Source: Amphirosellinia nigrospora
Taxonomy: Eukaryota; Ascomycota; Sordariomycetes; Xylariales; Xylariaceae
Direction of reading: 5' to 3'
Assembly (NCBI GenBank): GCA_004123355.1
Contig: SCHM01000001.1
Coordinates: forward strand, 10,302,193 to 10,366,192
Length of the DNA stretch: 64,000 bases
The position numbers and the translations under genes were made by a program. The first letter of the stretch is position 1, and each line of letters begins with the position of its first letter. This document shows, piece after piece, positions 2,888 to 39,351 of the stretch. The notes beneath the pieces were generated by a model. The model was not told the origin of the DNA and searched no databases. It saw only the letters and a list, made by a program, of their open reading frames with translations.

Positions 2888-4212
2888 TTAAATCACGGCC
2901 ATATGAGCCTCCAAGGAATCCTCACTTTCTAATTTGATACTAACTCCCGGGGCAATGAAGAATATGAAGCCCGTGGATAGATCAAACTTTTTGCCATCAC
3001 CATGCAAGTTACCTTTGCCCGATGTGCATATTAGGACGCCTGGCCCTTCACTCGCGCTGATCTCCTCGCTCTCATCCCCTTTCATAACTGTCCTAAGCAT
3101 ATCAAACTCGCCAATTGGCGGCTTGTACACCACAGTTTTACCGTTCTTACTCTTCTCGCTCGGGTTGCTGGGGAGAATGACGTCCTCTTTGCTGTGCGCC
3201 TTGAATGTCAATGTGTCGGCAAATGTGTCAACATTATTCCTGTCCGCTGGGGGACAGAACCCGACATTCAGCACGTTATTTGAACGAGCCATGCATTCTA
3301 CAATGTCACCAGCAAGATACGCATGAATACCATCGGCGGGGATGAAAATGGCATCTCCAGGTTGGAACACCACTACAACACTCGGAGTCAGTTACTACTG
3401 TTCAGAACATGAATTGTGAGAGTTTCAGTGCTTTGAAGACGCCAAAATAAGGAAGGAAGATGGTTCCGAGAATTACGCACTATAGTTCATGCATAGGAGC
3501 GCGACAAGACTTCCAGCGTCTTCAGGGCCATATTGGTCCTGCAGTCGTGGTAACAGGTCCAAGATATATGCTGCGTCTCCAAGCTCGCTTGCGGGGATTT
3601 GGGAGAGGTCTGCTTGTATCGATTTCACAGTATCAAGGTCGAGCTTCAGTAGTTCACGTGTGGCGTTCCTCAATGTCTCGTTCGTCCACTTGTCTGGCCC
3701 CCCAACGTTGAATCTCTTTAGAAGCGTGAGGTCAAAGAGGGGTGCGACCTCGTCTAATGGTTTGAACCCGGCGAAGACCTCGAATTTGGACAGCGCGAGA
3801 GCGATCTCCGGCTTGTGATTGGCGTCGGTAAACCTCTCCGGGTCCTTCTCCCGCAACTTCGCTGCGAGGTCTTTGTTGGGGTGGATCTGCAGGGGTAGGG
3901 CCTTCGCTATGGACAATATCTTCGGGAGGTACGGTAATTGCGCGTCAAACTGCGCGATGACCTTCTCGCCGAGGAGTCGATCTTTGTCGCGCTGGAGAAC
4001 TTCGGCTAAGGGTTCGCCAGTATCGAGCTTGCGGGCCGGGAAATCCGGGTAGTCCCCAAACCACATCTCTGAATAGTTCTTCTCTGGGTCGATTTTGAAG
4101 CCGCCCCTGGCGTCTTCTCGCAAAGTCTGGCTGCCAATGAGTCGGATCCCTTCTTGCCCCAGGGATACTCATTGCAGGTCCCAGCTAACTGGAATACGAG
4201 CTCTGACGACAT
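2888..4212 (-). CDS. PMI40: mannose-6-phosphate isomerase, class I
   Basis: Interconverts fructose-6-phosphate and mannose-6-phosphate in the cytosol, supplying GDP-mannose for cell wall and glycosylation. The N-terminus carries NEYPWGKKGSDSLAA. The zinc/active-site segments LQIHPNKDLA and NHKPEIALAL follow, then QPGDAIFIPADGIHAY in the second exon, all diagnostic of type I isomerases. There is one intron at 3373-3480 that splits an ATG codon (exons 4212-3481 and 3372-2888). That intron is a member of the introner-like family described below. The frame must shift by one base near 4115, between LCEKTPG and GFKIDPEKNYSEMW, in a G-rich run. Total length near 430 residues fits the family. Confidence 0.92.
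3373..3480 (-). repeat. introner-like intron copy 1 (in mannose-6-phosphate isomerase)
   Basis: A 108-bp intron starting GTGCGTAATTCTCGGAACC and ending in AACTGACTCCGAGTG-TTGTAG. Both ends match the introns at 8919-9065, 6016-6170 and 37679-37820, although the host genes are unrelated. The 3' motif contains the CTGAC branch site. Phase 1 insertion. Confidence 0.85.
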
Positions 4213-5425
4213 TGAGGTGCTGATTGTTGATGTGGCGTGTCGTGTCTAGGTGGGAGATCAGGCAACTATACTGTCAATGAAACAAATTTGTGTGCGCCTG
4301 AAAAAGATGAATATATTTTCGTTATTGGTTTTGTGTTATGGCTATATGAGGAGTTATTTCCAACTAATGAATGTAAAATAGAAGTTTTGATTGCTGTTCT
4401 TGTTATTCGCCTTGGCTTCTACCACAGGTCAAAACCTCAAATGCATGATGTCTTGATGTCGTCATAGGCAAGTAGATAGAGGACAGAAGAACTGGGACTT
4501 GTGGAACTACTCTACACGGATGCTCTCCATGGCATACAGGACCGGTCGTTGTTCAATCACCTCTCCGTATATGGGGTGGAACGCGCGTTCAACACAGGAA
4601 GACATGTTTCGCCAGATGTTTGAATGTTGAGGGTCATGCTCATTTGTATATAGTAGGTAGTGGATTAGCGTCGTTGACGTAATGCCTCCAACACACAAAC
4701 TACTAGGAAATGAGTTGCAGGGAACACTTAGGTGGAGTGGAAACACCATTGAAACGAATGCTGATGATCGCGGAAAATAATATTAAGGCTTACAATAATC
4801 AATCCGAAGAAATCCTTTTGACAAGACATCGTTCTTTCATGCGACATCGTACACGACTTAAAGTACACTAAAGCCGATTCGACCCGAGGCCGCGGTTGAG
4901 ATCAGATCGATGAGATCCCCACCAGAGATCTGTGGAGCGCGCGTGTTGACTCGTGCCAAGGAAAACTATTGAGGCTTACGTATGACCCTCAGCTTTTCCT
5001 CAATAGTCCCGATCTCACAGAGTAGGTGTAATTCTCCGGGAGCGGGGGTTTTGAAGGGCGATTGATGCCGAAAAGAATTACGGAATGAGGATCGTGGTAG
5101 TTGTGAGTCAACAACAAACAAAGAGAGCCACAATGCTGCTTTGAAGGGCATTCTATTAGCGTTCTCTTTAAGTAGTACAGCTTCAAACAATCGGCCCTCG
5201 GTCAGCCTCCGACGTCATCCCCACTAGACCAACGAATGGCTCCATCGCACAAGCAGCGAAACAAGATGGCCAGCGCTGTGAAGTCTGGTTGTGACGCAGC
5301 GATGGAGCTGAGAGCTGAACCACCTTCGTAGAAAAAGTGGGAAGTATGTAAATGCTCTATACGTAAACAGGTAGACAGTCGGATAGCATTGTCTTCCCTC
5401 TTATTATGTCTTAAGGTACTGCAAG
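4213..5425. other. intergenic, no recognisable gene
   Basis: About 1.2 kb between the divergent isomerase and DUF3292 genes. Short frames on both strands show no conserved motif. It presumably contains both promoters. Confidence 0.5.
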
Positions 5426-7955
5426 ATGTCGGCATTTGAAAAGAACAAGAGGACAACGCCGCTCGGCGTATACAGCAGTTGTTAATGTGTTGCCTGTTCC
5501 CGCGACAACAGCACCCGTAACTAGCCCGGACGACCACGACCTCGCGAATAGCATGACCGAGGAGCCAACGTTATCTCATTCACTTGCCATGGCTGACCAC
5601 GATGAGAAGGGGTTCGTACAGCACCCTCGCGACGAGGAGGTGGCCGATCTCGGGTGGAATCAGAAGAAAGAGCAGATACCTGCCCCCTTGGTTGGCGGGT
5701 TGGGGAATGAGGATCTCTGGCTTCTTATCCGACGATTCAATAAGGTGTGTCCAAGGTTCTCGCCGGCAGACGAGTCCAACTGACCGGTTTCAGCAAATGT
5801 ATCACGTGAAAGAGGTTCCGTCCACAGTTCCTGGGGATCTCGACCTCAATATCTCAGATGAGGAGGAGTTTTCGCCGGATAAGCTGAGAGCTACCGTGGA
5901 AAGGTTTTACATGACGTACGCACCTTGACCTAGGTTATAGCCCTTCAGTTTAGTTGAAGAGTATCTAACATTTGGATCTCCAGGGTTGTCATCGGTTTAT
6001 TGGCAACAGTAAAGCGTAAGAACTTCGAATGCCATTTTCTTCCGGTTTTAACAACTTATGGGGTATAAGATTTCTCTCTTGGACTGGGATAGTCTCGAGA
6101 AACATCTGAAACCATTATCAATCATATAAATCAGGCTCTGAATGGCAATAGCTGACTCCGACTGTTCTAGATATTGCCAGGCTCCGATCATGGCGCGAAA
6201 CTCGAAGGACGGCTTGTTTCTGTCTCGTATGTATCTCTCCACTATGGCCCCCCAATGACCTTAATGCTGATAGACATTTACAGGCGTACTTCGTCGCGTG
6301 GCTATTCAACTTTATCACTCCACTTTTCATCGCGACCTTAATCAGTCTAATTATCTACCCGCACTCTCGCGGAGTTCTCTTCCCGCCAGCCCCTATCGCA
6401 CTTGTTGATGCGAAATCTGGCGGCGTACAGAAGCCTAAGGCAGGTGTTCTCGGTAGCCTTGAGAGCGCTACTGGGGCGCCCGAGAATCATAAGGGTGAAG
6501 CTGTTGAGCAGTACGTATTATTCTTGTTAATCTTTTCCCGCCAGGGCCGAGTCTTTTCCTCGTTCATCCGGCGTCTTTCAGTGCCTTTCTGGCTTCTTAC
6601 GCATTGACGACAAGCACAAACGCTGATACCGTTTACCAGGGAAGCATCTAATTTCTTCAACGGCTTCACAGCTGTCGTTGTCACAAGCGCCACGGGCAAA
6701 AATCCACAAGCAAACCCACAAACAGACGGAGAGAACTCGGCTGAGGCTCATGTGCCAGACCCAACAGGTCTAACCGCGTCTGCGGTCCAAGCCAAAGACG
6801 TAGCAGCGGGCGGCCAGAAAGGGTCCAAGCATGACAAGACCAAGGTACCGGTCGAGAATGCCATTTGGAGCAAGATGCGGCCGATCATGCACGGCATCAC
6901 CGATGTTGCCGATACCTGGGAGCGGTTGGGGAATGCGTTGTCGCCGACACCACCGTTCCCGCAAGACACATACCGGATCCGACTCGCGGGGCTCGTGGCA
7001 CCGTTGCTTATAGTATCGCTCTTCGTCACGTCGTATGCGTTCGTCAAGGGCGCCACCTTCGGGTTGGGATTTGCATTCTTTGGCGATCCGATCATTACGC
7101 CCGGCCTGCGCTGGCTGAACAGGCAGTACCCACAGTGGCAGAAATTGCTCGAGATGCGTAATACGGTGCTTAAGGGGGTTCCAACTAATGCGCAGCTCAC
7201 GCTCACGTTACTTCGTGTGGGCGAGGCGAACAACGCGCCCCTGCCCCCCGCACCCTTCGTCCGCGCACCGCCACCCGACCGTCCGGCCGATATCACTGAC
7301 GCGGAACTGCGCGCGACGGGTGCTGAGCCCCCCTAAATGCTACTGATGCCGAGCTGGAAGCGGCGATGGAGCACGATCCCACCACGGCGCACGAGACGGC
7401 CGGGCCTGATATCGATGCGGCGAAGAGCGGTCACCACAGGAAAGGCAGCAAGATCATTGGGGTGTTGAAGAGTGCCGTGAAAGGTACCGTCAAGGGTGTC
7501 ATCGCAAGCGACGCGGCGCGCGCCAAGGCGGGCTCTCAACCCGCTAAGAACCGTCTCGGTGTCGTCCCTCCCCCAAAGCTGAACTATTGTCGGGCCCCGT
7601 AGATTTCAAGGGACGGTATGACGGCCGGAAAGGGCGGGTATACATCGCCACGAAATCGACTATCCCTGCTGTGGGTTTTAGTACGGATGTGACAACGGAG
7701 TCCGCGGATGGGGAAGGGGAGCTGCATCCCTTGTGGAGCATCGCGATTGGTGATATCAAGGAGCTGAAGAAGATTGGGGGTTACGGATGGAAGGCGAAGC
7801 TAATAGTTGGTTGGTCCCTAGGTCGCGAGGTGCACGATGGGCTAGAAATTACGGATCGTCAAGGGAATGTTAGACGCATTACTGCACTCCCGCTGCGGGA
7901 TGAGTTGTTTAATCGGCTGGTTGCCATCGGAGGGCAGAAATGGGAGGCCTGGTGA
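5426..7955 (+). CDS. DUF3292-family membrane protein
   Basis: A fungal membrane protein of unknown function. The N-terminal part has DDHDLANSMTEEPTL and LVGGLGNEDLW. It is followed by LDLNISDEEEFSPDKL and two hydrophobic regions: FVAWLFNFITPLFIATLISL, and PLLIVSLFVTSYAFVKGATF near the middle. LKGVPTNAQLTLTLLRVGEA precedes a basic, low-complexity linker. The C-terminal domain contains KGRVYIATKSTIPAVGF and resembles a lipid- or membrane-binding fold, although I cannot prove that. Introns lie near 5744-5792, at 5916-5983, 6016-6170 (introner-like), 6227-6283 and 6511-6639; the exon at 5984-6015 is only 32 bp. Frame shifts are needed near 5470, at the C run at 7328 and at the C run near 7570. 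The start could instead be 5436. Confidence 0.8.
6016..6170 (+). repeat. introner-like intron copy 2 (in DUF3292 gene)
   Basis: A 155-bp intron starting GTAAGAACTTCGAATGCCAT and ending in AGCTGACTCCGACTGTTCTAG. It is the most diverged of the four related introns, but aligns with the 37679-37820 copy over the first ~45 and last ~25 bases. It splits a His codon (C|AT), phase 1. Confidence 0.8.
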
Positions 7956-8643
7956 GATATTAATGATATTGGAATCGATATGTTTAAGCGTTATCTGACT
8001 TTGTGTGCGTTAGTGCTCGGTCCTGGATTAGTTCCGTTGATGTTCTAATTACGTGCACCAGTGCGATGCGAGTATGGCATCTGGTTTAAGTAAGGTGTTT
8101 GGGCGTATCGTGGTTATTGCTTTGAGGTTATCAGACTTCTTGATTTTGTGCAAACGATACCCCTATTGAGCTTTTAGGCAGGAGGCGGATACACTGATTA
8201 GGTGCTTAAAAATTAAAGAATAGATGTTGAGTATAGTACTCATGATAATATGAACACACTTGACTTCTCCTCTTCTCATTCTCTCTCGACTATGATAGAA
8301 CATTACACTTGAATCCCGAATTATGAACGGAGGGAAAAATGTGCTGTAGGAGAGGGACGTCGAATTGTGCTCATAGCTCTCGGAATCAACGGATTCAATA
8401 TGATATCAGACAACTGCGAAGTTGACATTTCATAGAGTAGTTTTGCAAATCCTTGTTTTATAATTCCGGTAACTTTATCTTCGGATCTATTTTAGAAGTG
8501 CTAAATCTTTACGCCCAGGACACTTCATACTCAGCTCACCAGTTAAATAGACACCTGCCATGAGTACGCCTACGGAGTGATACATCATTCTAAAGTCTGG
8601 GAGCATCTCAAAGGCAGTCGCAATTCCTTAGGAAACTTCATAA
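7956..8643. other. intergenic between convergent genes
   Basis: 3' flanks of the DUF3292 and acetylesterase genes. AT-rich, with no coding signal seen. Confidence 0.5.
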
Positions 8644-9975
8644 CTATACAGGGATCGTGCCATTAGAAGCAATACAAGGCCCGTATGACGATGTCAGCGA
8701 AGCTGTCGAATTTGTGATTGCCGCACCTAGCGCCGAAGTGCCGCACTTGAGTCCGAGGACGAAGCTTCCTAGAAAAGAATTAGAGTCAATAATGGCTGTA
8801 TTTGAGACATCATCACGAATCTGAAGTTGAGAGATTAAGGTTCGGGTTTTGTAGTTCGAAGAGAAGCTCAGAGTAGATGGGTTTGTCTTGACCTACCAGC
8901 CATCACATTCGCCATGTACTGCATCACTCGGAGTCAGTTATCGGTGTTTAAAATGTGAATTATGAGGTTTTCAGGGGCTGCTAGATACAATCACCTCCCA
9001 AAAAGGAAATAATGTCCTTTGGAAGCTGACAAAACAGGAAGAAAAGACTCCTGGTAATTACATACCGCATCTGTATGAGTGTGATCATTCGGATAGTGGG
9101 CGTTCACCGTCGCCGTCCCGAGCTTGGTCATGGCTTGCGCGGCATATTCGCCGTGGGCCACGTGGTATACGCCTGCTTCTGTGCCTCCAAGCTGGCTTGC
9201 CGCGAGCCTATTCAGGTGATCAGTTCACGAACCAAATGGCCAAAGGGTGCGTGAACTTAGCTACCAGGCGTAGTAGTCAAATCGAGATGGGCCCCAACCA
9301 CATGTACCGCCTTCGCAAATACTGTGATGATAAGTCAGAGTGTAAGATAGAAAGGATAGTATAAATACGACGCAAGGGCGAGATCTCGAAGCGATTTTAG
9401 TCCATCAGCACGGGGATTATAGATACCGCTTACTTATTTGGCGTAGCGGAGCTAAGTATCACTTTCGCCCCTTTAGCTAGGAATAGCTTTGCGGCATTCT
9501 TGTAATAAGCCGGGTACGTTAAGACGGTCTCAGAGACGCCATTATAAACCTGATCATAAGACCAATCAATCAGCCGTCCTCATCTTGTGACCTATCCCAA
9601 CGCAAATCGACAAACCCGCATATCTTACCGTACTGCAAGTCTGGGTTCCGTCACCAAAGCAGTCTGTCCGCCCATTATCTGTGGGAGATAAACTGCCGCC
9701 GTCATTATGGCCGAACTCGACAACAACCCAGTCGCCCGACTTGACAACGTCAGCGATCGCCTGGAAACGCCCCTCTCGCGTAAACGAGCGCGCCGAACGC
9801 CCCCCGATCGCCTTGTTGGAGGCGACGTAGCTGGAGGGCAGACTATATTTCAGGAACTCCCCCAGCCTTCTGTACCGGAGCCCCCGCCGGCTTTGGCCAT
9901 TGTCGAGTCGCCGGCCAGGTACACTGTGGCCGCTGTGGCGGAGCCAAGGAATGAAATCAAGATGGTAGATAGCAT
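8644..9975 (-). CDS. rhamnogalacturonan acetylesterase (SGNH/GDSL, CE12), secreted
   Basis: Removes acetyl groups from the rhamnogalacturonan I backbone of pectin, outside the cell. The start [15 protein letters not shown] is a signal peptide. Block [10 protein letters not shown] holds the nucleophile Ser. The sequence then runs [18 protein letters not shown], then block [11 protein letters not shown], then the catalytic Asp/His pair in YPNDHTHT. It ends [14 protein letters not shown] and NGTIPV. At least five introns are needed; exon 1 runs 9975-9629 and the next begins at 9549. The intron at 8919-9065 is introner-like. A run of five G's near 9858 (minus strand) must hold six to keep GWGEFL in frame. 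Apart from that single break the gene is complete. Neighbours suggest no operon-like partner. Confidence 0.9.
8919..9065 (-). repeat. introner-like intron copy 3 (in rhamnogalacturonan acetylesterase)
   Basis: A 147-bp intron starting GTATGTAATTACC and ending in AACTGACTCCGAGTG-ATGCAG. It lies between the codons for Ala of DHTHTDA and Tyr of YMANVMAG, phase 0. The C-rich/T-rich inner 5' part (TTCTTCCTGTTTTG) matches the fucosidase copy. Confidence 0.85.
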
Positions 9976-10851
9976 GGCGAGTTATAAAGTGGACGGTGTT
10001 GTGGTTGTCAGGTCAAGTCGCAGGAGGTATACTACTGTTAGCTATGAATGATAGTAGTTGTTATATCTAACATGAACAATTGAGGGCGAGTAAGGTATGA
10101 TACGTATTTCTATAATCTGTACAGACATCGAAATCGCCACTCATGCCATTGGAGCGGCTCCGTAGCTAATCTAAGGGTTTGGAGATCTTAAGGTCGATCA
10201 CTGCAACATAATAATTCGGGCTTTCGCGATGAGATAGCCCGTTTCCCCGGCGAGGCCAGGAGGGACGTGTAACATCACTAGGCAGGTTAAATACTCTGGC
10301 TGGGCCTCGATCCTTGGTATAATAATAGGTTCCTGGTGAACTTGCATGGCGGCGGGGAGTGGGAGTGGGCTAAATGGAGGTAGCTCCTCCGGAAGAAATG
10401 AGGTAAAATAATTCAGTTACGGGAGCGTACAGCTCGTGGTAGGACGCTAGCTTCACGCCCTTTGACACGAATTGGTCGTGATATCACTGAAGGACAAAAG
10501 GGTGTTATTCAATTTTTGAGTGGGATGTCGCGTGAATAGGAGAGTCGCGTTTTCGCTGAGCCACTGGAGCTGGCTGTCTTACAAACCGACCTTCTATTAG
10601 CTAGAATATATAGGCCTGCGGGTGGGAGGCGATCTGGAGAAACGTGTGCTTTGAATATAGATCTTGTAATTTGTTATAGTACAAGCGGAGGTGGAATTGA
10701 GCAGAGAACTTGGCAGACTACTATGAGTCTCTCGTCGATCTAACTATAATAATTGATCCACCAAAGAGATTTGGTTCACAATATCAGTCACTTGTTTTAA
10801 AGTTGGAGGAATGAATTAAGAAAGGCATATCAAATTAGTGCTGGTGTGTTA
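9976..10851. other. intergenic, no recognisable gene
   Basis: Upstream region of the acetylesterase and 3' flank of the next minus-strand gene. I see no conserved motif here. Confidence 0.5.
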
Positions 10852-12237
10852 CTAAATCCTCATGCCCGTTGACTCCATATACCCAATGTCACCCTTTCTC
10901 TCCTCCACCGACAAGTCCACTTCTCTGTGCCAGTGTCGGAGGCGGTCGCGTTGTGAAGGCTCATACTCTGGCATTAGCATTAGCGCTCGTCCGAACCCAC
11001 TATTCTCAATTCCTTTGGCCAAGCCAGACAGAGCGTTGTCTACGCGATTCAAGATACTTGCGGTCCGAATGTCAAAATAGAGACCGCAATGTCGCATCTC
11101 TTCTAGCAGGCCGAGAAATCCCGAGAGATCGCCACGACGTGTCCAGTAGATAGCAAGAAGCTCATTGAAGAAGAGCGTGGAGACACCCAAGACGTAGGAC
11201 TCGAGGCCTAGTTCCTTTATACGAGGCAAGATGGAAAATGTTAGAGAGGAGGGCGCGGAGAAGGCGGAGTCAAGGCGTCGAAGTCCAAGCAGCAAGTAGG
11301 CCGGGTATAGAGGGCCGTGAACGTAGAGGCTTAGGTCATGGAGTCGTCGGGATCAGAGAGGCTATTAGATGATGTCGACGTGGTATCAATCTCATCGGCT
11401 TCGGGTCTGGGGTCTGCTTCTGCATCGTGGCTCGACTCTTCTGGTGAATCTGCAGTGTTACGGCGACCGTTTGCCTCGGTCATCGGCGAGGCCTCTGCGT
11501 CGTCATATTCAGGAGCGCTTTTGACTATGCCTAGACGAGCAGGCATGGTAAAGACCTCCTTCTCCAAAATATCCCACAGCTCGAAATCAGAAGCCGCGGA
11601 CATGATCAAGCCCTCAATGCGAGATCTCTCGGGAGCTCGCTTGGCCTCGAGCTCCAGAGTGCGGGAAAAGGTGTGTGCTGGCGACTGCCACTCGCCGTTG
11701 GCGGATTCATCCTCTTCGGGGTGTAACTATTATCTTGTTTTGGATTCGCCTGTTGCTTGATGCCATCGATGGCTCTTTCAGCGGCGCTTCGGAGTGGGGG
11801 TGGAAAACGTAGGAGCGCTTTGGCGCGGTTTTTGGCGGCGCCTGCGAGGAGAGCTGGAGAGGACAGGGTGGATGAGCGGGCTTGGCCGGCATCGTGGGCA
11901 GCTTGCTGCATGATGAGTCTTGTAGACCGAGTGACAGAAGAATCGTCAGGCTCGCCGTCGCCTTTCACAGCTGGCCTGAGGCCGCGGGCTTCGATATCGG
12001 CAAAGATGCGCTCAAAGATCTGGCGCTCGGATGGGGTGATGGTACCCCTGTTCGTGACCTCGGTGGCGGGGACATCTTCGTCGGGCTTGTCGAGCTCGAA
12101 GTCGAAGGAATTGTTCCGTCTTTGGTGCGACGGGCGGTTGCATGGAATGAGCGCGCGATGCCAGCAGATGTGCGATGCGCCGGTATGCGGAGGATGGTTC
12201 TCGTCTGGTAGAGGAAGGGTAGCAAGGTAAAGGACAT
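10852..12237 (-). CDS. Mtf2-like mitochondrial protein
   Basis: Resembles fungal proteins with an Mtf2-type C-terminal domain, which act in mitochondrial mRNA processing or translation in the matrix. The N-terminus MSFTLLPFLYQTRTILRI with RSFHATARR is Arg-rich and lacks acids, as a mitochondrial presequence should. A central region reads PSERQIFERIFADIEARGL. The conserved core is SAASDFELWDILEKEVF, then LSLYVHGPLYPAYLLLGLRR, FSILPRIKELGLESYVLG, and LLEEMRHCGLYFD. The C-terminus is acidic and basic low complexity. The frame shifts by one base near 12115, 11700 and 11330. It is divergent from CMR1 across a 682-bp spacer. Confidence 0.75.
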
Positions 12238-12919
12238 TTTGACTTGACCTCAAGACAACACGAGCACGTAGCAAACAAAATTAGTGAAAGGTGAGCAGAT
12301 ACCACCTATGGCATGGTCAAATTTACAACTTGTATAAGGTACAGGTAGATATATCAAGCAAGCAAGCTCTTGGACCTGCGGGCTCTGGGGTTTTTTTGGT
12401 GGGTCATAGGCTAGCATTTTAGTAGATATACACCTATATGCCATAATGTACTTAAGGGGGCCACTATCTACAGCGGGTGCGGCGGGGCATTACGAGGGAC
12501 TAGATAAGATAGCGCATGCATCTGCCTGGGATTCCAGGCAGCCGCCGCTAAATGTGGGGGCAAAAGTGGACGCGAGAGCGCATGACTTCGCGTTAATTGA
12601 TTTTCGCCCGTCGCGAGTCGCTCTCATTATGGTCAAACCTCCCACTTCTCCTTACGCGAAACTACAAATTTCTGATAGCAACACCAAATCGATTGCGCGA
12701 AATTTCACTCCAATCCTCATTGCAGGTACTTCAATCTTCCGTCTTTGAATCAGAGTAGCCACGGTCACCCTTCCTTCAGTGATTGATCGCATACAAAGAG
12801 CTACGCGCCGCGACTTACATCCCCAGTACCCAAAGTCAACTACGCTCCTCCTCCCAGTATCATTTCGTGCCGCTCTCTCGCTACCATATTTTGTCGCGAC
12901 CACGCCCACATTCTCCACG
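12238..12919. promoter_or_regulatory. divergent promoter region, Mtf2-like / CMR1
   Basis: 682 bp between two divergent starts. It contains several CG-rich words such as TTGCGCGAAATTTC (near 12692) and TTCGCGTTAATTG, which resemble E2F/MBF-type sites. Their use is unproven. Confidence 0.35.
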
Positions 12920-14519
12920 ATGCCGCCTGAAAAGTTGAGCGCCTTCGAGGCGCGGAGAAGGGAAAATGTAGCCAACAATGCGAAACTCCTTAAAGACACC
13001 GCTGACCTCGGCGCTAAAATGAGGAAAGCAGCTGCACCACCCCCAAGACCAGCCGCACCACGGAAACGCAAGGCTGCCGAACCTGCAGTCCGCACCCGCG
13101 TCATGCCCGTTCGACAGAGCGCCCGACTGGCAGCAGGCGCGAACTCTGACTCTAAAGACACATTGGTGAAACTGGAAGATGTACCAGTCGAGTTGAAGGA
13201 TAGAGAACCGAAGAGAGTCCGCACTAATGGAGACCTTCAGCTCTCGAACCTCCAGGTGGAGGGGAAGAGGTGGTCCAGTACGGAAGCTTTGGCTAGTTTC
13301 GTCCAGGGGGCGCAGCCTGGTGTCAGGACGTTTACTGACGAGGATATAAATGAAACGACGGATGAGAAATTGAAATCGTTGCGGCAGGACTTAAATGACC
13401 TGTCCTTGTTTGCAGGCTGGCAACCGAATGGTAAGCCTGTGATAGCAGTTGTAGTGCTCCTGCTCCGAACATTACTGATACAATCGCGCAGACATCAAAA
13501 TAACACCAGAGAGAGTATACGCCCTCACCTTCCATCCTATGTTAGACAAGCCCATTGTGCTGGCTGGAGATAAAAAGGGTACTCTGGGTTTCTTCGACGG
13601 CTCGCAAAAGACACCGGATTATCCAGAGGATGATGACGAAGACTTCGATGTTCCATTGCCCCAAATCGGTGCATTCGAGGTCCACAATCGCACCATTACA
13701 TCTATCAAAATCCCCATGTTCGATCAAAACTCTGTTATTACAAGTTCGTACGATAGTTCAATACGCTGTCTCGACCTGCCAACGCAGGTTAGCACCCAGC
13801 TATGGGCACCAGAGGAGGACGGAGACGAGCTTGGGATTTCATGCATCGATATATCTCCTGAAGCGAAGGACACCATAATATTCTCTACCCTTGAAGGCTC
13901 ACTTGGTCGAATAGACAGAAGGTCAAAATCAAAAGCCGAGATCTGGGGATTAACAGACAACAAGATCGGCGGTTTCTCCCTGAACCCGCTCCTTCCACAC
14001 CTCTTAGCCACTGCGTCCCTGGACCGCACATTAAAGATCTGGGACCTGCGCATGATAAAGGGTAAAGGCGACCTTCGCCACCCGTCACTACTCGGCGAGC
14101 ACACGTCGCGCCTTTCAGTGTCACACGCATCGTGGTCCCGTAGTGGCCATATCGCTACGTCGTCGTATGATGACACGGTTAAAATCTACGACTTTGACTC
14201 GGCCGCGAAGTGGAAGCCCGGGCATGACATCCCAGACAAGGAGATGAAGCCCGAAGTCAGCATCCGCCACAACAACCAAACGGGCCGCTGGGTCACCATC
14301 CTCAAGCCGCAGTGGCAGACCAACCCCGCTGACGGGATTAATAAGTTTGTGATTGCCAATATGAACCGTTTTGTCGATGTCTTTGATGAAAAAGGCACAC
14401 AGTTGGCACAACTCGACGGTGACGGCATAACGGCTGTTCCTGCCGTCGCAGAATTTCACCCCATAAGGAATTGGGTCGCTGGCGGCAATGGCAGCGGAAA
14501 GCTGTGTCTTTGGATGTAG
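12920..14519 (+). CDS. CMR1: WD40 DNA-damage-binding protein CMR1
   Basis: Nuclear WD-repeat protein of the CMR1/WDR76 family, which binds DNA and takes part in replication-stress and proteostasis responses. The start MPPEKLSAFEARRRENVANN is family-typical, followed by a basic linker with KRKAAEP and VRQSARLAAG. Then come the repeats: VLAGDKKGTLGFFDG, ITSSYDSSIRCLDL, STLEGSLGRIDRR, LLATASLDRTLKIWDLR, IATSSYDDTVKIYDF, and the final GNGSGKLCLWM. One 61-bp intron at 13431-13491 joins in phase to give 512 residues, near family length. No frame break is needed, which is unusual in this window. The ATG sits in the context CCACGATGCC. Confidence 0.95.
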
Positions 14520-21619: not shown

Positions 21620-22033
21620 GTGATGGGCGATGGCGTGATGAAGATACGAGTGCGTGCATGAGAAAGGGACATTGATACCAGGATGGAGTTTGGCGTTTGT
21701 CCGGATTGCATGTTGAGCTCGGGAGCGTGGAATATGTAAATCAAAATCCGTTATAGAAATGGACCGTTATGATTTCAATGTGTGCATTCAACTTGTCAAC
21801 TCTGCGTGAGACCGACATGGAAAACAAGTTTACAACTCGGGTTGATGAAGAGAAAAGCATCGACTGATATGTCTAAAATTACTTACCATCTTGGGTGGTG
21901 AGTGTTACCTAGTATGAGCAACCCCACAATGGAGTCCTGGTGAGACAGAATCCGCTTATCCCCCTCCGCGCCAAGATCAACATCGACGCCCCGTGATGGG
22001 CACCAGACGGTTGGCATTCAGCAAGCTCACACG
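21620..22033. other. intergenic
   Basis: Between CND1 and the permease, both on the plus strand; presumably holds the permease promoter. No gene seen. Confidence 0.5.
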
Positions 22034-28259: not shown

Positions 28260-31200
28260 CGTGAAGCTTTTTTGTCTCTTCTAGTGGTTAGCCTTCGATG
28301 GGTGAGAGCTGATCCTGGAATGCTTGGCAACAAACAACGGTTGATCTACTCCAAGGAAGTCGAGTTCGAAGAAAAGAAAGGATATGCCCTGGGGATTAAA
28401 ATAGAAAACCTGTCGAGGCTCTCATGCTGTGGTATCCTTATGCATCGTGGCAAGGCAATTTGCAGCTAAGCGCCCCTGAACTGCCGAACCGACCGATACC
28501 GTCGAAGGCGTCGCGTTATTAGAATGATTGGATTGCATGTCCTACTTCGATGTATTAATTGATCTAATTCCCCTTTCAGACTGAGTTGCCATCCTTCCGG
28601 AACCTGATTGATCGGCTGAGCTGCTTGGCCACGTTCTGGCTGTATCATGTTTACCCGGCTATTAAACCTTCCAATGACACACTCGGGGTAAACACGCCAA
28701 GCCATCATCACTAGCCTGCCCCTTGTCCGGAAATATGGACTGCAGCCTGACTATTTACGGTCTTTTCATGATTGCCACAACGTTGTCCGTGGTTGTAGTG
28801 GGAAAGTAACCTTAGTATTGGCCACCATCACCCAGATCTGCTCTCCTGTGACCAGGGCAAGCTCATGAGGCCCAAGCAGTTTCTTTTCTTTAGCAGATAA
28901 CTATTCAGCTAGCCTTGTGGGCGTCGTTGGTGCGAAAACTGGATCCCTATTGTAGACACAATCGCAGTATTCCAATTGTATCGACATTGACGATCATGAT
29001 GTGGCCAACTCCCGAGACGATGGATATCTTGAATCGGTCCGGCGAAACGCTCGGCCGCTTTGATAGGCCTTGGCTACTAAATTGTATTCGATATATGAAG
29101 TCTTTGACCCCCATCGGAGGCGTGCGGGCAAAGCCCGCACGAATAGATATCATCTCCCAATATCAAGAACTTGCCAGGGCTTTGGCAACTTGGTCATCAG
29201 GGAATGTTGGCTGCCAGTATAATTGTGTGACGCGACTGGTGGATGACCAGGTCATTTCTCTACGTTGCTCAGCTTCGTAGAGCCCCGGTTCATTTTCATA
29301 ACCTGGCCGCCACAGTCTCGTTGCTTGTATGCTGCCACATGCCGATATCCGGTATAGTACTGATGTAATATTTTTAATAACGCTGCGTTGAGCGCTTCAC
29401 CGGCATTGCGGCCTACCTATGAAATAGTAATTAAAAGACGTTCAGTATACAACTAGTTGTACGTCATGATGCGTTGAGATTCCACCTCTGCCAATGTAGT
29501 CGAGGGCGATCGTGGCTTTCCCACCTTCCACGCCGGCCAGCTATCCGTGAATTAGCCACTGTGGTTTAAAAATAACGCAAAACGCCGAAGAGCAAAGCAT
29601 CGGCAATTCATTCGTACAGATGACTGAGGAATCATGGGATAAAACACTTCTACGAGCTGTTCGGCAAAAAGTTTTTCTCTTTCTATAAATCAAATTCACC
29701 AAGTAAAAGTTATATAACTATGTTTTATAGCCTCCCAATATTATTAGAAGAGAATTGAGTCTAACGACTAGCATTGCTAAATATAGCACACCCCAGAATA
29801 ATCTCATATCACCTCAACCAAGACGTCAGGACTTACGTAGCCTGTATATCGTCATTAGAGTGTGCAACTCTGTTTTGTGGCTGATCTTCTAGTTAATTAT
29901 ATGAAGGTAGAGAAGCAGGATGACGCGAGGCCTGGATACTTAATCAAGGCTCTCTTAACATATATAGAGCCTAGGTCTCCCATCAGGTTGAATTGCAGAC
30001 AAGGCCTTCATAGTTCCTTGAAACCCTAGAAGTTTATTACAATTCTAATTTATTTTTAGACCCAAAAACATATGCCTTGTCCTTCTTGGGGTAATTATAC
30101 CACCTACGGCGCCTTCCTAAATAGGATTTGCTACCTGCTTAGTTGAGATAGCTACAATTTAGGTCCGCTCTCCTCTACTTCCTCCCGGAGATATATCTCA
30201 TAGCAATAGGTCCCGACATACTAACAGACATGGGGCTGGTGGTTTATTACTAGCATGATGTAAAGAGAGCGTAAGTCGAGAAACTTCTAAAATTTTAATT
30301 GGAAGAGAATATCGAGAATATATTGTGGTGGTCATGAATAATTGCGACAATTTTCAAGAAGACATATTGTAACCCTTGTTGCCCGCCGCATAGCTTCTCC
30401 TAGGTGCCATTGAACATCCGGCCCAACTATCTTCCACTTCCTATAACCTTTCTGAAACAGACGTTCTTGCACTTTGCAGTGCGAAACACCCCGCATTAAT
30501 ATTCGAGCCTAGACGTGCTGGTAACATAATTTTCGCTACAGGACCCTCAACAGATTTCTCCTTCTTTTCTGGGGAATATATGCTGTACCCTGAGCTTCCA
30601 CCGCGTCCCTCACATTCAAACCATCAGTGCTGTCTTCCTCTCCAATGTATTTCTGTCTATCACAATGATATTATCTTAAATTATTTTTGAAATCTGTACA
30701 TAGTTCTTCTGAAGAGATGCTAAGCACCGGATGTTTACAGGCACCTTTGAGTGAACTCAGAATATCGCAGCAGACGAAATCCTTAAAAGAAAGTTTTAGC
30801 GCGACCGAAGTAACTAATCTGCCTTTCTTGTTATAAAATATCTTTTATTCATACGTTAGGATGAGGCATACATTAATTAAGCCCTTATATACTTGGTTTA
30901 TAATAGTTTATATATAATAGGGCAGGGCACTAGCAACCATGATTGAGCTAGGGAGGATGTATTGTCGTGGGGCAAACAGAACTAAGCGCGACTAACTCTT
31001 TCTTGATTAGTAACGCCCCTATTTGTTTTTTGAAACCTGTATTGTTTATTGGTTAGGTTTTAAGTTTTAAACGTACTTAATGCTGCAACTCTATGCCTAT
31101 CCTCTATAACTAGCTATATGTTGTGACTGAATAGCTAGAGGATGGCAGATTTGATACCTCGGTCTAACAGTTCTCCCGCTGCCACGTACCATGCCTACAA

Positions 31201-31886
31201 GGGCGATAGGCGCGACTGTAAGAAGAATATGCTACAACAATGAGCTACCTATACCATCGCACCGCTATTGGGGTTACTTAAAGGGTTCTAATAGGCACGC
31301 CCGAGCGGGACTAGGATCTGGGTGTAGTATTTGTCGCTTAATCGGTAGCGAAAAGAGGGATTATCGGTATCCGGTGTGCTACAGATCTATCGATACCTCT
31401 TTTTAGGGATAAGATGGGATGAATACTTAATTAAATGAAAAAATAACAGTGGGAAAAGCTTGCACCGCATGTTTATGGCTATCTCAAGTTTTACTGGACT
31501 GCCTACAAGTAGTCACTGTTGCTCTCTATCTCCATTAGATGGTAGATATATGTCATTGCGCACTCAATGCTGAGGTTAACACATGGATAGTCAATCGTGA
31601 GACGTTATCAGGAAATATATATACGTATATAACACAATACGTAAAGCACTAGTCTTTGTGTGACAAGATCTATGTATCATCTTGACTAACTAGCATCGTA
31701 GGGATATAAATTATGACTTGGACTCATCAACTAGTAGGTTCTCACGGTTTGGCAACTTGCCTAGGCACGGTTGCTTTACCAGGCTAGGAGAATCGATTGC
31801 CGAACATGAGGAGACAGTAGAGATAGAGCCAGCCGTCTCCAATAGACTATGCTTCCCTCGACGGAAGAGATTTGATAATTCTGTTC
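28260..31886. other. long gene-less region with AT-rich centre
   Basis: About 3.6 kb without a recognised gene. The first kilobase has ordinary composition and presumably the DUF1996 promoter. From about 29300 to 31700 the sequence is visibly AT-rich with many stops in all frames, as in repeat-induced-point-mutated or otherwise degenerate repeats. I could not assign it to an element family. Confidence 0.5.
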
Positions 31887-34800
31887 CTATGCTGTCGGGA
31901 ATCTTTGGGGGAACTTCACTATCATAGAAGACTGAGCTAGCAGGCGAGCTTGTATCGCTGTGGCGGAAATCGCTGGACTCTGACCCAACAGAAGACCTAG
32001 ACGTATCCGAATTGGGGCTGAGGTATGTTTCACCATCGATACGACCTTGGCATGGTCGCTCAGTATGCCGATGATTTTCGGCGTGCTCCTCTTCGTCAGA
32101 CGCTTCAACAGGCTGCTGGAGTCGCCAATGATCACGGCGCTCTTACCTTCGATCAAGTCTGGGGCACAGATACGTCCAAACGACGAGATAGAAACTACTT
32201 GCAGCAATTTATTGCACGAACATTGCCACTCTTGGGGGGTAGGGCACGGCTGGAACAAAGACGTGTCGCGACCATGGAGTGCCAGGTTGGTTGCCGTAAG
32301 TCGCTTCTTCGACTCGCGGCAGCCAGCTAGAGAGTAGAGCCCAAGAAGAACTTGGATTGGAACAGCCATATAGTCCTTGCCCTGCGGAAGGGTTTTCCAT
32401 TGGTGACAGAGACCTGTCTGGTTGCCAATCGGTCGTATTAGGTCTCCGAATCCATTGGCAAGTAGGACTAGCGCATTGACGTCGCGCACAAGTCTGGGCC
32501 AGCCTCCACAAGTCTTGTGAATCTCTAACTCCTTGAGCGGCATAGGTGACCAGTCCTCAACTACAGCGTTGTATTCATACCCCATCAAGCGCTCTTGCCA
32601 CGTTGCGTGGATCTCGAGCTTGCTGTTCTTTTCCGCTGAGATGCTCTGGGCCTGCAGTAGCTCAAGGACAGACCAGATCTCAGAAACAACATCGACTATG
32701 AAGAGTGGCTCATCTTCCTCAGAAGTAAGCCGCACCTTTGCGTTTTTAAGTAACGTTTCGGTGAAACTCCCTGCATATGAGATCTTGACCTTGCTCGCGG
32801 GAACTCCACCTAGCCCCGATGATAGGCGATGACGCAGAATGTGTAATAACACCCTGACGCAGGTACAAGACAGCTGCGACGCTCTCCCTGTATCGAAAAG
32901 GGCTACGAACATCCTATCTGCGGCGGAAACGATTCTGCGATATGTTGAACTGCGTTGAAAGTGACATTTTCCATCTCGTTTGCCATATGTTACGTCGATT
33001 TGGGCCAGCCCAAATTGCTGAAACCCAAGGCTTCCGCCGGGTATCTGTAAGGTCGCTTTCACTTCCGCCGCGTCCGAGAACTCAATATTGTCAAAATTAT
33101 TCGTTTCATCTCCAACTCGGACCTCCACCAGGCTATTCCAGCCGATGAAACACGGGCTGTCGTTAATGAAGCAAAGCCCAAGTCCAGTAAACGATTCGAG
33201 CACTTCTTGATCCTTCCTCATAGGAAAGTTGCATATCAGGGTCACTATTTGCCACGTAGTGCCACTGTATCCCATCTATAGTTCGAATCACTGGCACAAA
33301 CATTGATGAGAATCCTTTGATGACGATGCCGCCATCAAATGTAGCTGCGTGGCGGGCTCCTATAATACTTGCCATAAGTTTCACGGACATTTCCAACCCC
33401 ATCCCGTCTGCTCTCTCTGGGATGGGGAATCCGTATGCGATGACTGCGTTTGAAAAAAGTGATAGCCAGCATAAATTCCGTTCGCTAGCATGCAGTTTGA
33501 TGAAACAGGTTTCAAGTCTGAAGATCGGCTCAGCTGGGATTGGATCACCAATGAGTTCGATTCTCGGCGTGCAGTAACGGATGCTTTCCTCACCGGGTGG
33601 CGGGGTAGAAAATGTTGTGGTAAGCCAGCAAAGCTGCTGCACAATATCGACGGCGAAGGTCCTTGAGCCTCTAACTCGTACGTTTAGCGACCCGTCCCCA
33701 CCTAGCTCGATAGATAGTGCCCATAACTGATCGTGTTCTAATCACTTAGTTGTCAGTTATATCACTGCGACGAGGATGGTGCATTGTAGATTACATACCT
33801 TTGGAGATTTTGGCGGTCGAGTCTGGCTGATGGAGAACTTCCTGGGTTACTTCCTGCAAGATGGGAAGTAAGATCTCTCCTGTGTCAGGCCATGTGGATT
33901 TCAGGTAGTCAAGACATGTTGTGGCGTAGGCATAAAATGCAGTGCCTGTGATTGTTACCAATGTTGACATCTCAACCCGTTCATTAGAGAAGTTTTGCTG
34001 GATGTAATCGAAGAGAGTAAAGTGGGTCTCAACAACAAACTCAATCGATTCCGAGGGAACAGTGGCCGCCGTAGCATAAGACGAGTGCTTAGTGCTGAGC
34101 TTATGGGTGTCTTCCACTCGTAAGACCTCTACAGCATGGTCCATGGAGTGCCTGGGTGCTGAATAAAGCTTTTCTCTGACAAGTAGAGATAGCGACTCGA
34201 AGATCGTGTTAAAAACGATCTTGTCGCTCGTGTTCACCAAATTTAGTAGCTGATAGAGATTGTGATTTTCATCCACTGGACCACTCATTCTGCTAAATCC
34301 TCCGGAGCTCGCCTCATTTGCTTCCACGAGTGGTTCCATAGATCCGACGATGGTTGGGAGCGCTTCGAAGTTCGAATGGCCCATCTTTGCTTCCTCATAG
34401 AAATAAAAACAAATGTCTTCCTTCGTTTGGCTAATCGCGTCTTTGATAGATATACAAGAGTTATGGTCGCTCATGAGTAAATGGGATGTTAAAACAGCAT
34501 CAACTTGAGAAGCTAAGTTTTTGTACTCAAGTCTTGCCAGAACCGACTTGCCCCAGGTGTGAGCACCACTTCTAGATGCAAGACATCGAGAAAATTGCGT
34601 AGCGAATCTCCTTGCCATGGGACGATCAAGCGTCCTCGAAGATTGGTATATAAGTGACAACCCTGCATTATATCCAGGGGTGGTGAAATCCGTCGCAGGG
34701 TCGGAAATGTGTCCAGAATCATGGCTGCTCATATGATCCGATGAATCTAGACTTGAACGTAGGCTGGGATTGCCTTCCGGACCTGAAGATGCACCCTCCT

Positions 34801-35524
34801 GCCAGTTGCTTTGTGCAAGAGCGGGATATTGAGCAATCACCGAAGCTGGGAATGCGAGAACCTCGGTCCGAGGTGGATGCAACTCCAGGTTGGTCGGAGG
34901 TTTCTGCGCCCCTTCTTCCAGATTGCGTTGAGACTTATCATCATCCCACAATGGCTCGAGGCAGATATGACCAGCTTCTGATTGGAGATGGCGGCCAAGA
35001 GCATTAACTCTGTCGAACCGCCGGCCGCAACCCCATGGATTGCCATCACTCAGATTGCCGCGGCATACAAACATCTTTTCCCTCTCATGTCGCCTCTCAT
35101 GTCGCTGTTTAATGGCATCAAACGGGAAGGCCCTTCCACATATACTGCAGAGAAATGGTTTTTCTTTTATATGTGTGCGGAGGAGATCGTAAGCACCGGC
35201 AAAATTCGTTGTACTTAATATATTGACGTTGCCCAGCCCCATAACACCATCATACAAGTTGTCCTGAGATCGTTGCATTGGCGAGTGGCCATGTTCAGAA
35301 TGAGCGAATTCATCATAGGCCGTTAAATTTGTCGATACGGTATTGGAAGATAAATCACTGTAATCCGAAGGCGTCATTCGACACCCTTGGAACTGGGTTT
35401 CGGTCCACTCTACTTGACCAGGAAGCAAGGCGGCTTCTGGGTCTAATGAAGTATGTCTGGGATGGCCAGGAGGAGAAGTGGACCTCTGTTCTCGGAATGT
35501 GTCAAATATGAGAGGCTCCGGCAT
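31887..35524 (-). CDS. large C2H2 zinc-finger protein with long conserved C-terminal region
   Basis: About 1,180 residues. The first exon (35524-33807) carries a C2H2 finger CSICGRAFPFDAIKQRHERR and a second finger-like segment VCRGNLSDGNPWGCGRRFDR with NALGRHLQSEAGH, a pairing seen in fungal C2H2 proteins. The following segment is largely helical. An intron with donor GTATGT directly after the codons for KISK and acceptor TGATTAG joins in phase to EHDQLWALSIELGGDG. The second exon has RNLCWLSLFSNAVIAYGFPI, KGFSSMFVPV and CFINDSPCFIGWNS. These resemble the C-terminal region of large fungal proteins of unknown function. One frame shift is needed near 33220. If the intron is not used, these are two genes. 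The C-terminal half may have a further break near 32870. Confidence 0.65.
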
Positions 35525-36595
35525 AGCGATGGATTCACTGCTGAAATTACATTAAAGGAAAAAGAGGATGAAAAGAGGGTTGTAATCGGGAACACCAGAC
35601 GTGGAATATTGGTTCGATACCGATGCGTCATGACTAATCGTGGGAGATGATAGTCGCCTAGAAGTCTGCCTTATGATGTGTCATCATAAAATGCCTCTCT
35701 GTATTGGCTCGCTTAATTTGGGCGTAAGAATAACTACCAAGAAACAGATAGGTATTTTCACAGGGCTCACGATTTCTTGGCAAGGCAGATTAGATGAAAA
35801 TAGATTACCTATAGCTTGCGTTTTGACGGTTGATCGTAACTTTTGGACTTATTTAGTTACCATAGGACTGTGTCATACCTCTCAGGCAAGTTATGCAACC
35901 CTTTGTACTTATAGCTAAAGGACTATTACTCACGCTTGCTAATGTCTCCTTAAAAAAGAATTTCCAGGCCGCATATGCAACCTCTTATGATTTTTAAATG
36001 ATAGCGAAATCTCAAGAGTACTGCCTAGGCGCTAGTCGGGTCACGACGTCTATTTGCCCGTTAACATTGCATACTATTCTAATTAGCTACGCAGACATAC
36101 TTTCCTATTTAGAAGTTTGTAAATAATGAAGCTATCTCTAACGACGTGAGCAGTACGTAATGCTACAAAATTCGATCAATAGCTAAAAAAAAAAAAGGGA
36201 AGACATCTCGTGTGTATTATATGAGCCCTTTTATCTATCCACCATACACCGAATTCAAGAAGCAGAAAGATCTTAGGATTCTACTTCTGGGCTTATTATC
36301 AGCCTCTGTATAGGTTGTCGTCGCATTTCAGGCCTAGGTGAGATCAGTCGCCGCCAAGACCTATTAAAGTTGGAGACATAGCTAGATCATGGTTTCTTTT
36401 CGGGGTATTTTCGTACCGAGGATGGTTGATCGCATGGGACCTGCGAAGGTGATTCGGGGTCAATACGACTCTGCGGGGCGTTACATCACTGCGCTCGTCT
36501 TGCAAGGAGAAGGAGGGCATTGCAGTGATAGATATAGTTTGTTTGCGGGCTCGAGTTTTCTCTGCCAGTGAGGCTACACAATGACATAGTTCAAA
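35525..36595. other. intergenic, no recognisable gene
   Basis: Divergent spacer between the zinc-finger and fucosidase genes; partly AT-rich. Contains a 12-A run near 36186. Confidence 0.5.
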
Positions 36596-39351
36596 ATGTT
36601 GGGTTTTTATGTGCTCTGGCCTGTTTCGTCCTCGCTGCTTGTGCCGGGGTGCGTAACATGTTTACATCTCATACAAACCCACTATGATACCGAACTGATT
36701 TATACTGTACAGTCGATCCCTCTCACATATCGACTCACTTCAACAACAAAGCTTTCGGGACCTATCCGGGCGAAGCCTCCTTCGACGGCCTGGGGCAAGC
36801 CTTACCCCCGGCCACTCGCAGCTTACACGCCGACCTACACCTCCAGCAAATCAGGCATCGCGTACGCCTTCCCAGGGTACACAGGGCCAAAGGCACCAGA
36901 CAACGTGATCTGCGCAGGACAGAGGATCGATATCCTACATGATGTGTCCGAAAGATATTCTCCGTTCTCCTTTTTGTCTCCGGAGACGTAGAGTTCGCAA
37001 CGGCGACGGGAAACGTCACATTCCACTACGCGGATAACACCACCTCGAACTACGAGTTGCGCGCGCTGGACTGGTTCTCCTGGCTTACACTCAACAGAGG
37101 CGAACTCGTCTTTCCGTCTCGGTTCACGGAGACGGGCGTCAATTGGAATACAACCCATGTTTTTGAGCGTACCGCGCCCCTTGATCCTGACCGAAGGTTG
37201 ATCACTGTTACACTGCCTAATGCGGCGAAGGCGGGTGATGCACGTTGCATGTCTTTGCGGTGTCCCTTTGGGTGCGGATGAAGGGCGCGATGTAGAGATC
37301 CAACTGCACGGCCGACACAGAAGTGGTTCGACGCCGGGAGCAGATTGTCGAGGTCGTGGTTAATTAATGCTGGGCAGGACTGTGTTGCTGGATCGGGAGT
37401 CACGATTGAGATTGTTGGGGACGGATTTAAGACAACAAGGTTGGGAAATCTCAAGCGGCTTTGCCCCGGGGACCAGAAGGTTGTCAAGGTAGGGGTTAAG
37501 GGCGTTTCAGATGAGGCAGCAGACGTTGAGATCGTTGTTGATGGTGACGTTGGTGGGCAAGTAACTAGATTCTCAAATGTCAAGGTTGGCTTGACGGATT
37601 GGACTCCCGACCTGGACAATCTTGCTCGCCATGAGGCGCCCGACTGGTTTGATGATAGCAAGTTTGGTATCTTCATTCGTAAGCAATTCTCGGAACCATT
37701 TCCTTCTTGTTTTGGCAACTTTTAGAACTCCAAGGTTTCTTTTTATGACAGGAGTGTCCAGAAGTCTAAAAATCTCACGAATCAGCCCCGACTAGCAATA
37801 ACTGACTCCGAGTATTGTAGATTGGGGGGTATATGCTGTAACGGGATGGGGGAACTCGACACCGCATGAGAGTTATGCCGAGTGGTTCTGGTAAGTCCAA
37901 GTATTTGCTATTGCCCATTCAATCGAAATACATGATGTGTGATCTGACGGAACGGTGATGAGAAGGTGGTATTCTACACACCACCCACAAGCAGACCCCT
38001 CGGACTTCTACGACTACCGACTGCGCACATACGGCCCAGAATGGGCCTACGATGACACGTTTCCGTACTTTACGGCATCCAAATTCGACCCAAAAGCATG
38101 GGTTGATCTGTTCGCAGATGCAGGGGCGCAGTATTTTGTCCTCACAGTGTGTATAAAACCCTCCAGTGCCTAATCCCCTGCCTCCGTGTCTCGTATGATG
38201 AAGCAAGTTCTGCCATACAAGGTTTAGAGATCTCAACTAACATATTTCTATGTACGTAGTCAAAACATCATGACGGGTTCGCCCTATTCGACACTGGCAA
38301 GACGAGTAACCGGTCATCGCTTGCATACGGTCCTAAACGGGATCTTCTGCGAGAACTCTTCAACGCCGCCGCCACGTACCAGCCGCAGCTTCGGCGAGGA
38401 ACCTATTTTTCGCTCCCAGAGTGGTATAACCCTGACTTTGGCCCATACGGTTTTGACCAGTTGCCAGCCGACACCGTACCGGGCACGAACTCCTGGCCCG
38501 GTGTGCAGGCGCGCAACCCCTACACGGGCGCCATCGAGCCGTACACGGGCCACGTCCCCGTAGACGACTTTATCACCGACGTGATGTTGCCGCAGATGAA
38601 GATCCTAGCAAACGACTACGAAACCGACATCATGTGGTGTGATATAGGCGCCGCCAACGCGACGGCCGTGTTTGCGGCGGAGTGGTGGACCAACACGCGC
38701 GCGGCGGATAGACAGGTGGCGATCAACTCACGTTGTGGCATTGCGCAGGCCGCCGACTTTGACACGCCCGAGTATGCGACCTTCGCCTCGGCGCAGACGC
38801 GCAAGTGGGAGAGCAACATGGGCATGGACCCCTACAGCTACGGATACAATGCCGCGACGCCCGACGAGGCATACATGAACGCCAGCACGCTCGTGCTCAC
38901 GCTCGTTGACGTCGTGGCGAAGAATGGGAATCTGCTCCTTGATATCGGGCCCCGTGCCGATGGTACGATTGTCCAGGCTGAGGTAGATAGTCTGCGCGAG
39001 GCGGGACGATGGATTCGGTCTCACGGCGAGGCCATTTTCAATACGACGTACTGGTTTGTACAGAGCGAGGTTCTTGGGGAAGGGCTTGACGCGCGCTTTA
39101 CGCAGACGAATGACGCGTTTTATATTTTATTTTTGGAAAAGCCTGTCCCGGTCAACGGAGCTGTCAGAGTACCAGCGCCGTTACCAATCCTAGCAGGCGA
39201 CGAGGTAAGTTTGCTAGCTATTGATGACGGTCATGACTTAGCATGGAATGTAGGTGGTAACGGGGATCAGAAAGTGTTGAATATCGAGGTCGAGGATGAG
39301 CTGTTGGATGCAGACAAGTTTTGCTGGGTATTCAAGATTAAATACGCTTGA
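36596..39351 (+). CDS. alpha-L-fucosidase, GH29, secreted
   Basis: Releases L-fucose from plant or glycoprotein glycans outside the cell. The N-terminus is a signal peptide if one T is removed from the run after MLGF, giving CALACFVLAACAG. The N-terminal fungal domain has SSKSGIAYAFPGYTGPKAPD, ELRALDWFSWLTLNRGELVF and RLCPGDQKVVKVGVKG. The GH29 barrel has LARHEAPDWFDDSKFGIFIH, WGVYAVTGWGN, TASKFDPKAWVDLFADAGAQ, KHHDGFALFDTG, the nucleophile Asp in TDIMWCDIGAAN, and NGNLLLDIGPRADG. The end is CWVFKIKYA. Introns: 36652-36713 region, 37679-37820 (introner-like), and two short ones near 37891-37965 and 38148-38259. Frame breaks lie near 36610, 36740, 36810, 36950, 37250 and 37365. From 37365 on, the barrel is continuous. 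Confidence 0.92.
37679..37820 (+). repeat. introner-like intron copy 4 (in alpha-L-fucosidase)
   Basis: A 142-bp intron starting GTAAGCAATTCTCGGAACC and ending in AACTGACTCCGAGTATTGTAG. It splits the conserved His codon (C|AT) of the FIHWG active-site block, phase 1. It aligns with the copies at 3373-3480, 8919-9065 and 6016-6170. Confidence 0.88.

Follow-up and report, generated by a model that had tools for sequence, protein, structure and literature searches.

How new spliceosomal introns originate is a long-standing question, and fungal introners belong to the small number of systems in which intron gain is frequent enough to be studied. The question is raised by a stretch of 64,000 nucleotides from the ascomycete Amphirosellinia nigrospora (Xylariales, Xylariaceae; assembly GCA_004123355.1, contig SCHM01000001.1, positions 10,302,193 to 10,366,192 of the forward strand), referred to here as the window, in which four introns in unrelated genes resemble one another. 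Near-copies of one short intron across unrelated genes mean that introns are being multiplied, and they give a clue to how sites are chosen. Are these four introns members of a dispersed family, and if so, where and how do new copies enter genes? The reading that best fits the results is a family of canonical GT-AG introners of about 146 bases, present in an estimated several hundred copies, which would be inserted seamlessly and in the sense orientation with a preference for A|TG sites and then be spliced out. We give this reading as a whole a probability of roughly 0.93.

Four related introns in unrelated genes

The four introns of the window are located at 3373..3480 (minus strand, 108 bp, internally shortened) in a mannose-6-phosphate isomerase gene, at 6016..6170 (plus strand, 155 bp) in a gene for a DUF3292 membrane protein, at 8919..9065 (minus strand, 147 bp) in a putative esterase gene, so named in the preliminary description of this DNA, and at 37679..37820 (plus strand, 142 bp) in an alpha-L-fucosidase gene. 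All four start with GT and end with AG. When aligned they have a mean column identity of 70% over their full length, and they have in common the 5' end, a TTCTTCC..TTTTG segment and the 3' end CTGACTCCGA. The preliminary description had reported four related introns in unrelated genes with a shared start, a segment of the TTCCTTC/TTTTGG type and a shared end; the shared parts are seen in the four-intron alignment, and the end-to-end alignment, the GT/AG ends and the phases confirm the observation. The phases it had assigned (1, 1, 0 and 1, in the order above) agree with the joined reading frames. The respective insertion sites are A|TG, C|AT, G|TA and C|AT, so that the window copies (one A|TG, two C|AT, one G|TA) do not by themselves display a preference.

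Three of the four hosts were upheld by protein or Pfam matches across the exon join. In an alignment of the spliced isomerase peptide with Candida albicans phosphomannose isomerase (1pmi), the join is free of gaps. For the DUF3292 gene, from which one ordinary intron was removed besides the introner, the 105-residue spliced peptide occupies 105 columns of PF11696 (104-208) across the join, and in the fucosidase gene the joined frame gives FGIFIHWGVY and the PF01120 match runs across the join. At 8919..9065 phase 0 follows from the open joined frame alone, and the 44-residue piece of the host is without a Pfam match; the name acetylesterase proposed for this gene is therefore not confirmed.

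Copy number in the genome

Searches covered the genome of 48.1 Mb in 11 contigs. The 14-base 3' motif AACTGACTCCGAGT has 180 matches genome-wide at up to one mismatch, compared with 15 for the reversed pattern, and the 21-base 3' end, with up to three mismatches allowed, has 251 matches, while its reversed control has 1. The genome-wide search for the 3' end that the preliminary description had put forward as a check thus yields many further copies. At E <= 0.001 the intron at 37679..37820, used as query, had at least 41 matches in the genome counting itself, a lower bound since scoring covered 40 of 69 candidates; the intron at 8919..9065 had 32 at the same threshold, again counting itself. 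A profile made from 46 copies and run over 81 loci and the window produced 109 matches, 93 of them near full length and 68 distinct. When rebuilt from 62 copies and run over 61 loci and the window, it produced 88 distinct genomic matches (three of them being the second half of a split copy) and no match to reversed-sequence decoys.

The 21-mer is carried by 13 of 23 full copies that were met incidentally; four of the ten copies that lack it have ends out of register, and the true share may be slightly higher. Based on the 251 genome matches and this share, we estimate the family at about 440 copies, with a binomial range of roughly 330-730. Ten 5 kb stretches taken without selection, of which one was all N, contained a single copy; this is consistent with an estimate of about 440, the sample being too small to serve as a test. 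The exact 3' end had no matches in viral and prokaryotic collections, as expected for a fungal element.

Structure of the element

The majority consensus is 146 bases long, as is the median copy. Among the 68 distinct full-length copies, GT stands at the start of all 66 that match from model column 1, and AG at the end of all 64 that match to column 146. By inspection, the branch element CTGAC lies 11 bases upstream of TAG. The best conserved block includes this branch point and the acceptor, as would be seen if unrelated introns merely shared strong branch-point and splice motifs. However, the similarity extends over the whole length of the element, and controls with reversed decoys and reversed patterns were empty or nearly so (0 matches, and 1 against 251); we consider an explanation by shared motifs refuted, with a negligible probability. 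Neither a lack of further copies nor an alignment at the level of random introns was found.

Near its ends the element carries an 11-base inverted repeat with one central mismatch, formed by YAATTCTCGGA after the donor and TCCGAGTRTTG before the acceptor, the 3' arm being located between branch element and acceptor. Its consensus score was equalled by 26 of 5000 shuffles. In a 9-pair stem named from this repeat, 87% of 407 cells are paired and covariation is 0.201 vs 0.173 (7/500 shuffles).

Internally shortened copies exist, including the 108-base copy of the window and a 93-base copy at another locus (L071:1429-1521). The latter is without the middle third, has a perfect 3' motif at its end and is found 55 bases downstream of a full copy. 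As a query, the 108-base form matched 13 places at E <= 0.001, itself included, and two of the others align over its whole length at similar size; this shortened form may itself have been copied, as the alignments suggest.

Exon joins and host proteins

Exons joined over 60 bases on either side of the element are open in 54 of 62 copies, compared with 43/62 when one base is skipped, 40/62 when two are skipped, 39/62 in antisense and 44% of random genomic joins. Over 45 bases on either side, 60 of 62 joins are open vs 62% of random joins, from which we estimate that about nine tenths of copies are coding and sense-oriented. Phase 1 was assigned to 28, phase 0 to 13 and phase 2 to 10 of the 51 copies with a single open frame; three further copies of the 62 are frame-ambiguous and eight are without an open frame. 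Nine of ten joined peptides that were scanned matched Pfam families, and in eight of these the matched stretch spans the join. Residue by residue, no gap occurs at the join in the aldehyde dehydrogenase, the adenylation domain, the LYS2 join and the isomerase. The joins point to copies that would be spliced out as introns.

The gene LYS2 (L-aminoadipate-semialdehyde dehydrogenase; L002, C1:608512-611525) holds three introners in 1.0 kb. Once these are taken out together with an ordinary intron, columns 484-1020 of TIGR03443 are matched by 535 residues, a fragment match of 679 bits that stands under the whole-protein cut-off of 1030. At the third join, one of two gramicidin synthetase domains has a two-residue gap a few residues upstream. 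Five introner matches lie within 1.1 kb at another locus (L027, C6:5889741-5892887), all on one strand and with exon-sized gaps of 27-152 bases between them; one of the five is strongly diverged and weak (18.7 bits).

Insertion site

The most informative feature of the family, and one that went unnoticed in the preliminary description, is a preference in the site of insertion. T follows the intron in 74 and TG in 45 of 99 3' ends, which come from 100 listed of 224 genome-wide matches and overlap the set of 62 copies. Within that set A is found at -1 in 32 copies, T at +1 in 46 and TG next in 29, and 26 of the 62 sites are A|T. Ordinary intron candidates of the same genome (39, found by pattern and frame rather than from transcripts) do not display a preference of the A|TG type, with A at -1 in 10% and T at +1 in 23%. 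The T bias is found in each of the three larger 5'-end groups (14/23, 15/17 and 13/16). Overall, the insertion site is biased and roughly palindromic, CA|TG. In the better-scoring half of the copies A occupies -1 in 22/31, vs 10/31 in the other half (Fisher p 0.005), but in only 5/10 of the top ten, and given this last count an age trend is not claimed.

Target-site duplications were looked for with words of 2-6 and 8 bases over an offset grid, and none was found: outside the intron, the four best offsets at each of the six word lengths did not clearly exceed what swapped partners gave. The largest excess (33 vs 26.9) falls inside the intron on both sides. Helitrons insert at A|T. A Helitron-like insertion was rejected, as neither TC/CTRR ends nor a 3' hairpin were seen by inspection and A|T makes up only 26/62 sites.

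The family could also consist of a non-autonomous DNA element with inverted ends that is moved by a transposase and carries splice sites by chance. The short near-terminal inverted repeat and the biased, roughly palindromic CA|TG site would suit such an element, and DNA transposons explain most introners outside the ascomycetes according to PMC9860276. However, target-site duplications are lacking at all six word lengths, homology stops at the splice sites, and about nine tenths of the copies look coding and sense. Nor is there a long terminal inverted repeat: repeats of the Hypoxylon type (45-55 bases) were rejected, since 118/1000 shuffles reach the score of the consensus compared with its own reverse complement, and copy by copy only 9/62 exceed a z of 2. 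We regard a DNA-transposon origin as unlikely.

At two of the three LYS2 introners the split codon is Met (A|TG). One of the sites reads AE|M|YLG, with Met where distant gramicidin synthetase domains have Gly, and the isomerase site reads NY|M|V, with Met where Candida has Val. A more speculative proposal is that insertion is guided by sequence at palindromic CA|TG without duplication, gain being directed by some specific agent (either an endonuclease that cuts blunt, or else a spliceosome or intron ribonucleoprotein that reads exon bases at the target), and that A|TG at some sites was imposed by the insertion, rewriting the codon to Met. We hold this proposal to be doubtful.

Dispersal, orientation and empty sites

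Where two copies reach up to 95% identity, their flanks resemble each other no more than those of unrelated or random pairs, and the hosts are unrelated protein families. Segmental or gene duplication, or local tandem copying, with the intron carried along, would account for the clustering of copies and for the three of 14 copies compared (from five multi-copy loci) whose nearest relative shares their locus (81% for two copies in L027 and 80% for one in L002). However, the nearest relative of the other 11 of these 14 is at another locus, and highly similar copies occur with unrelated flanks in unrelated protein families, which makes spread by duplication very improbable. Neighbouring matches separated by less than 1 kb share a strand in 29 of 29 cases (split copies excluded), and those at 1-3 kb are on opposite strands in 3 of 3.

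Sites without the introner were sought among paralogues within this one genome. In the aldehyde dehydrogenase gene (L028) the introner splits the gene's own match, while all 17 other genome matches (28-53% identical) span the position unbroken. For a permease (L058), seven of ten other matches span the introner position, one of them with two internal stop codons, and the remaining three begin at or after it. The preliminary description had read the four introns as an introner-like family. This reading is supported by the several hundred copies estimated, by full-length homology bounded by GT and AG, by the unrelated hosts and flanks, and by a site that is empty in 17/17 paralogue matches.

Relation to known introner systems

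Close counterparts have been published for Hypoxylaceae and Xylariaceae, families of the Xylariales (PMC8469720, PMC12403724), as sister stwintrons and cropped sister introns that occupy new positions in unrelated genes, seamlessly and without target-site duplication. The present family is like them in consisting of sequence-similar introns at new positions in unrelated genes, in being seamless and without target-site duplication, in probably functioning on the coding strand only, in having inverted repeats near the ends and in sometimes occurring twice in one gene. Their near-terminal inverted repeat of 9-10 bases, with the 3' arm between branch element and acceptor, has a counterpart here, with another sequence and one central mismatch. 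However, the published introns are stwintrons or derived from them and are described at tens of copies per genome, whereas the present ones are single and canonical, about 146 bases long, with no second intron nested inside, and are estimated at several hundred copies. The distance from branch element to acceptor is 11 here (by inspection) and 14 or 19 there, the near-terminal sequence differs (compared by description), the terminal inverted repeats of 45-55 bases described in Hypoxylon were not found, and a strong T(G) bias follows the intron here, where no bias in the bordering exon bases is reported for the published introns.

The [D1,2] stwintron structure (GGT start, internal AG|T) was not found among our copies: the base before GT is G in 15/62, near background, and the median length is 146. 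Likewise, no internal overlap of donor and acceptor was seen in the consensus by inspection. A search of this genome for amplified sequences related to the published 5' NTIRE-10 stwintron end gave 13 matches vs 4 for the control at up to one mismatch; this does not amount to a large family, and such relatives were rejected.

A preference for AG/GY is reported in PMC8469720 for the introner-like elements of the Capnodiales (Fulvia, Dothistroma; PMC4457414; van der Burgt et al. 2012). According to the description given there, they are like the present family in being canonical U2 introns, inserted seamlessly and in high copy number in a filamentous ascomycete, but they are set apart by site (AG/GY vs A|TG), again by description. 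The DNA-transposon introners of algae and protists (PMC9860276) are likewise scattered introns delimited by splice sites, and some of them have inverted ends; unlike in those systems, no target-site duplication and no co-opted splice site was seen here. The same source treats ascomycete families as outliers, in which neither target duplications nor terminal inverted repeats occur. Searches of the open literature, subscription papers and supplements aside, turned up neither this family nor a preference for A|TG. The suggestion in the preliminary description that the family is possibly a new one is therefore fair for the family; the kind is already known in fungi, including the Xylariales, and what is unusual is the insertion site.

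Proposed mechanism

The family, its boundaries and dispersal, the gapless joins where compared, the site preference and the intron-less paralogues are direct observations. A mechanism compatible with them can be outlined as follows. New copies would enter coding exons as sense-oriented units bounded by splice sites, preferentially at A|TG-like sites, where they would separate the A from the T. No target-site duplication would result, and in the cases compared the exon sequence is neither lengthened nor shortened. Each copy would then be removed by the spliceosome, leaving the protein unchanged. Copying may proceed through the excised intron RNA, either by reverse splicing into DNA or mRNA or by use of debranched RNA at a DNA break, and pairing of the 11-base near-terminal inverted repeat perhaps helps by bringing the ends together. 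Copying by way of RNA is favoured because of the splice-site boundaries, the sense orientation, the coding location and the lack of duplications. A DNA route is retained as a possibility because the site is roughly palindromic and the ends are inverted.

Several results count against the reading adopted here or parts of it. A DNA-cutting enzyme would also be compatible with the roughly palindromic site. The preference for A is weaker at 28 exact matches to the 5' motif, not checked as whole copies, where A precedes 11, T 9, G 6 and C 2 of them. At L027 the joined frame runs through four of the five junctions; the diverged copy, the fifth, was cut one base off. At L014 an open frame crosses two of four junctions. 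The paralogues compared for empty sites are distant, which limits what they say about the recency of gain. The case for the near-terminal repeat as a conserved RNA stem is weak: two-sided changes in the 9-pair stem were ordinary (221/500 shuffles), a copy's own arms paired no better than swapped arms (44/500), RNAalifold predicted no pair in a consensus structure for the whole element, and z was below -2 in only two of 12 single-copy folds, the other ten being ordinary. A consensus RNA structure of the whole element was rejected on the last two results.

The combination of several hundred copies, a clear site preference and no target duplication is a mechanistic constraint beyond those of the described fungal families, for which the preference is AG/GY or none. 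Site statistics offer a test between DNA transposition, reverse splicing and the repair of breaks with intron RNA, and many natural insertions are available in well-known genes such as LYS2.

Further observations

Exact matches to the 5' motif preceded by T, which are rarer among the copies read, may represent a diverged subfamily or partial copies. Repeat-induced mutation was rejected as the cause of divergence between copies, with C>T changes at 15% of CpA vs 20% of CpC and 9% of CpT; G>A after T is somewhat raised (25% vs 14% after A or G), unmatched by its complement. Among the 5 kb sample stretches, one (L047, C4:4116004-4121003) has 20.8% G+C vs 42-49% in the other readable stretches. 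Low-G+C stretches of this kind resemble the AT-rich isochores of fungi with repeat-induced mutation.

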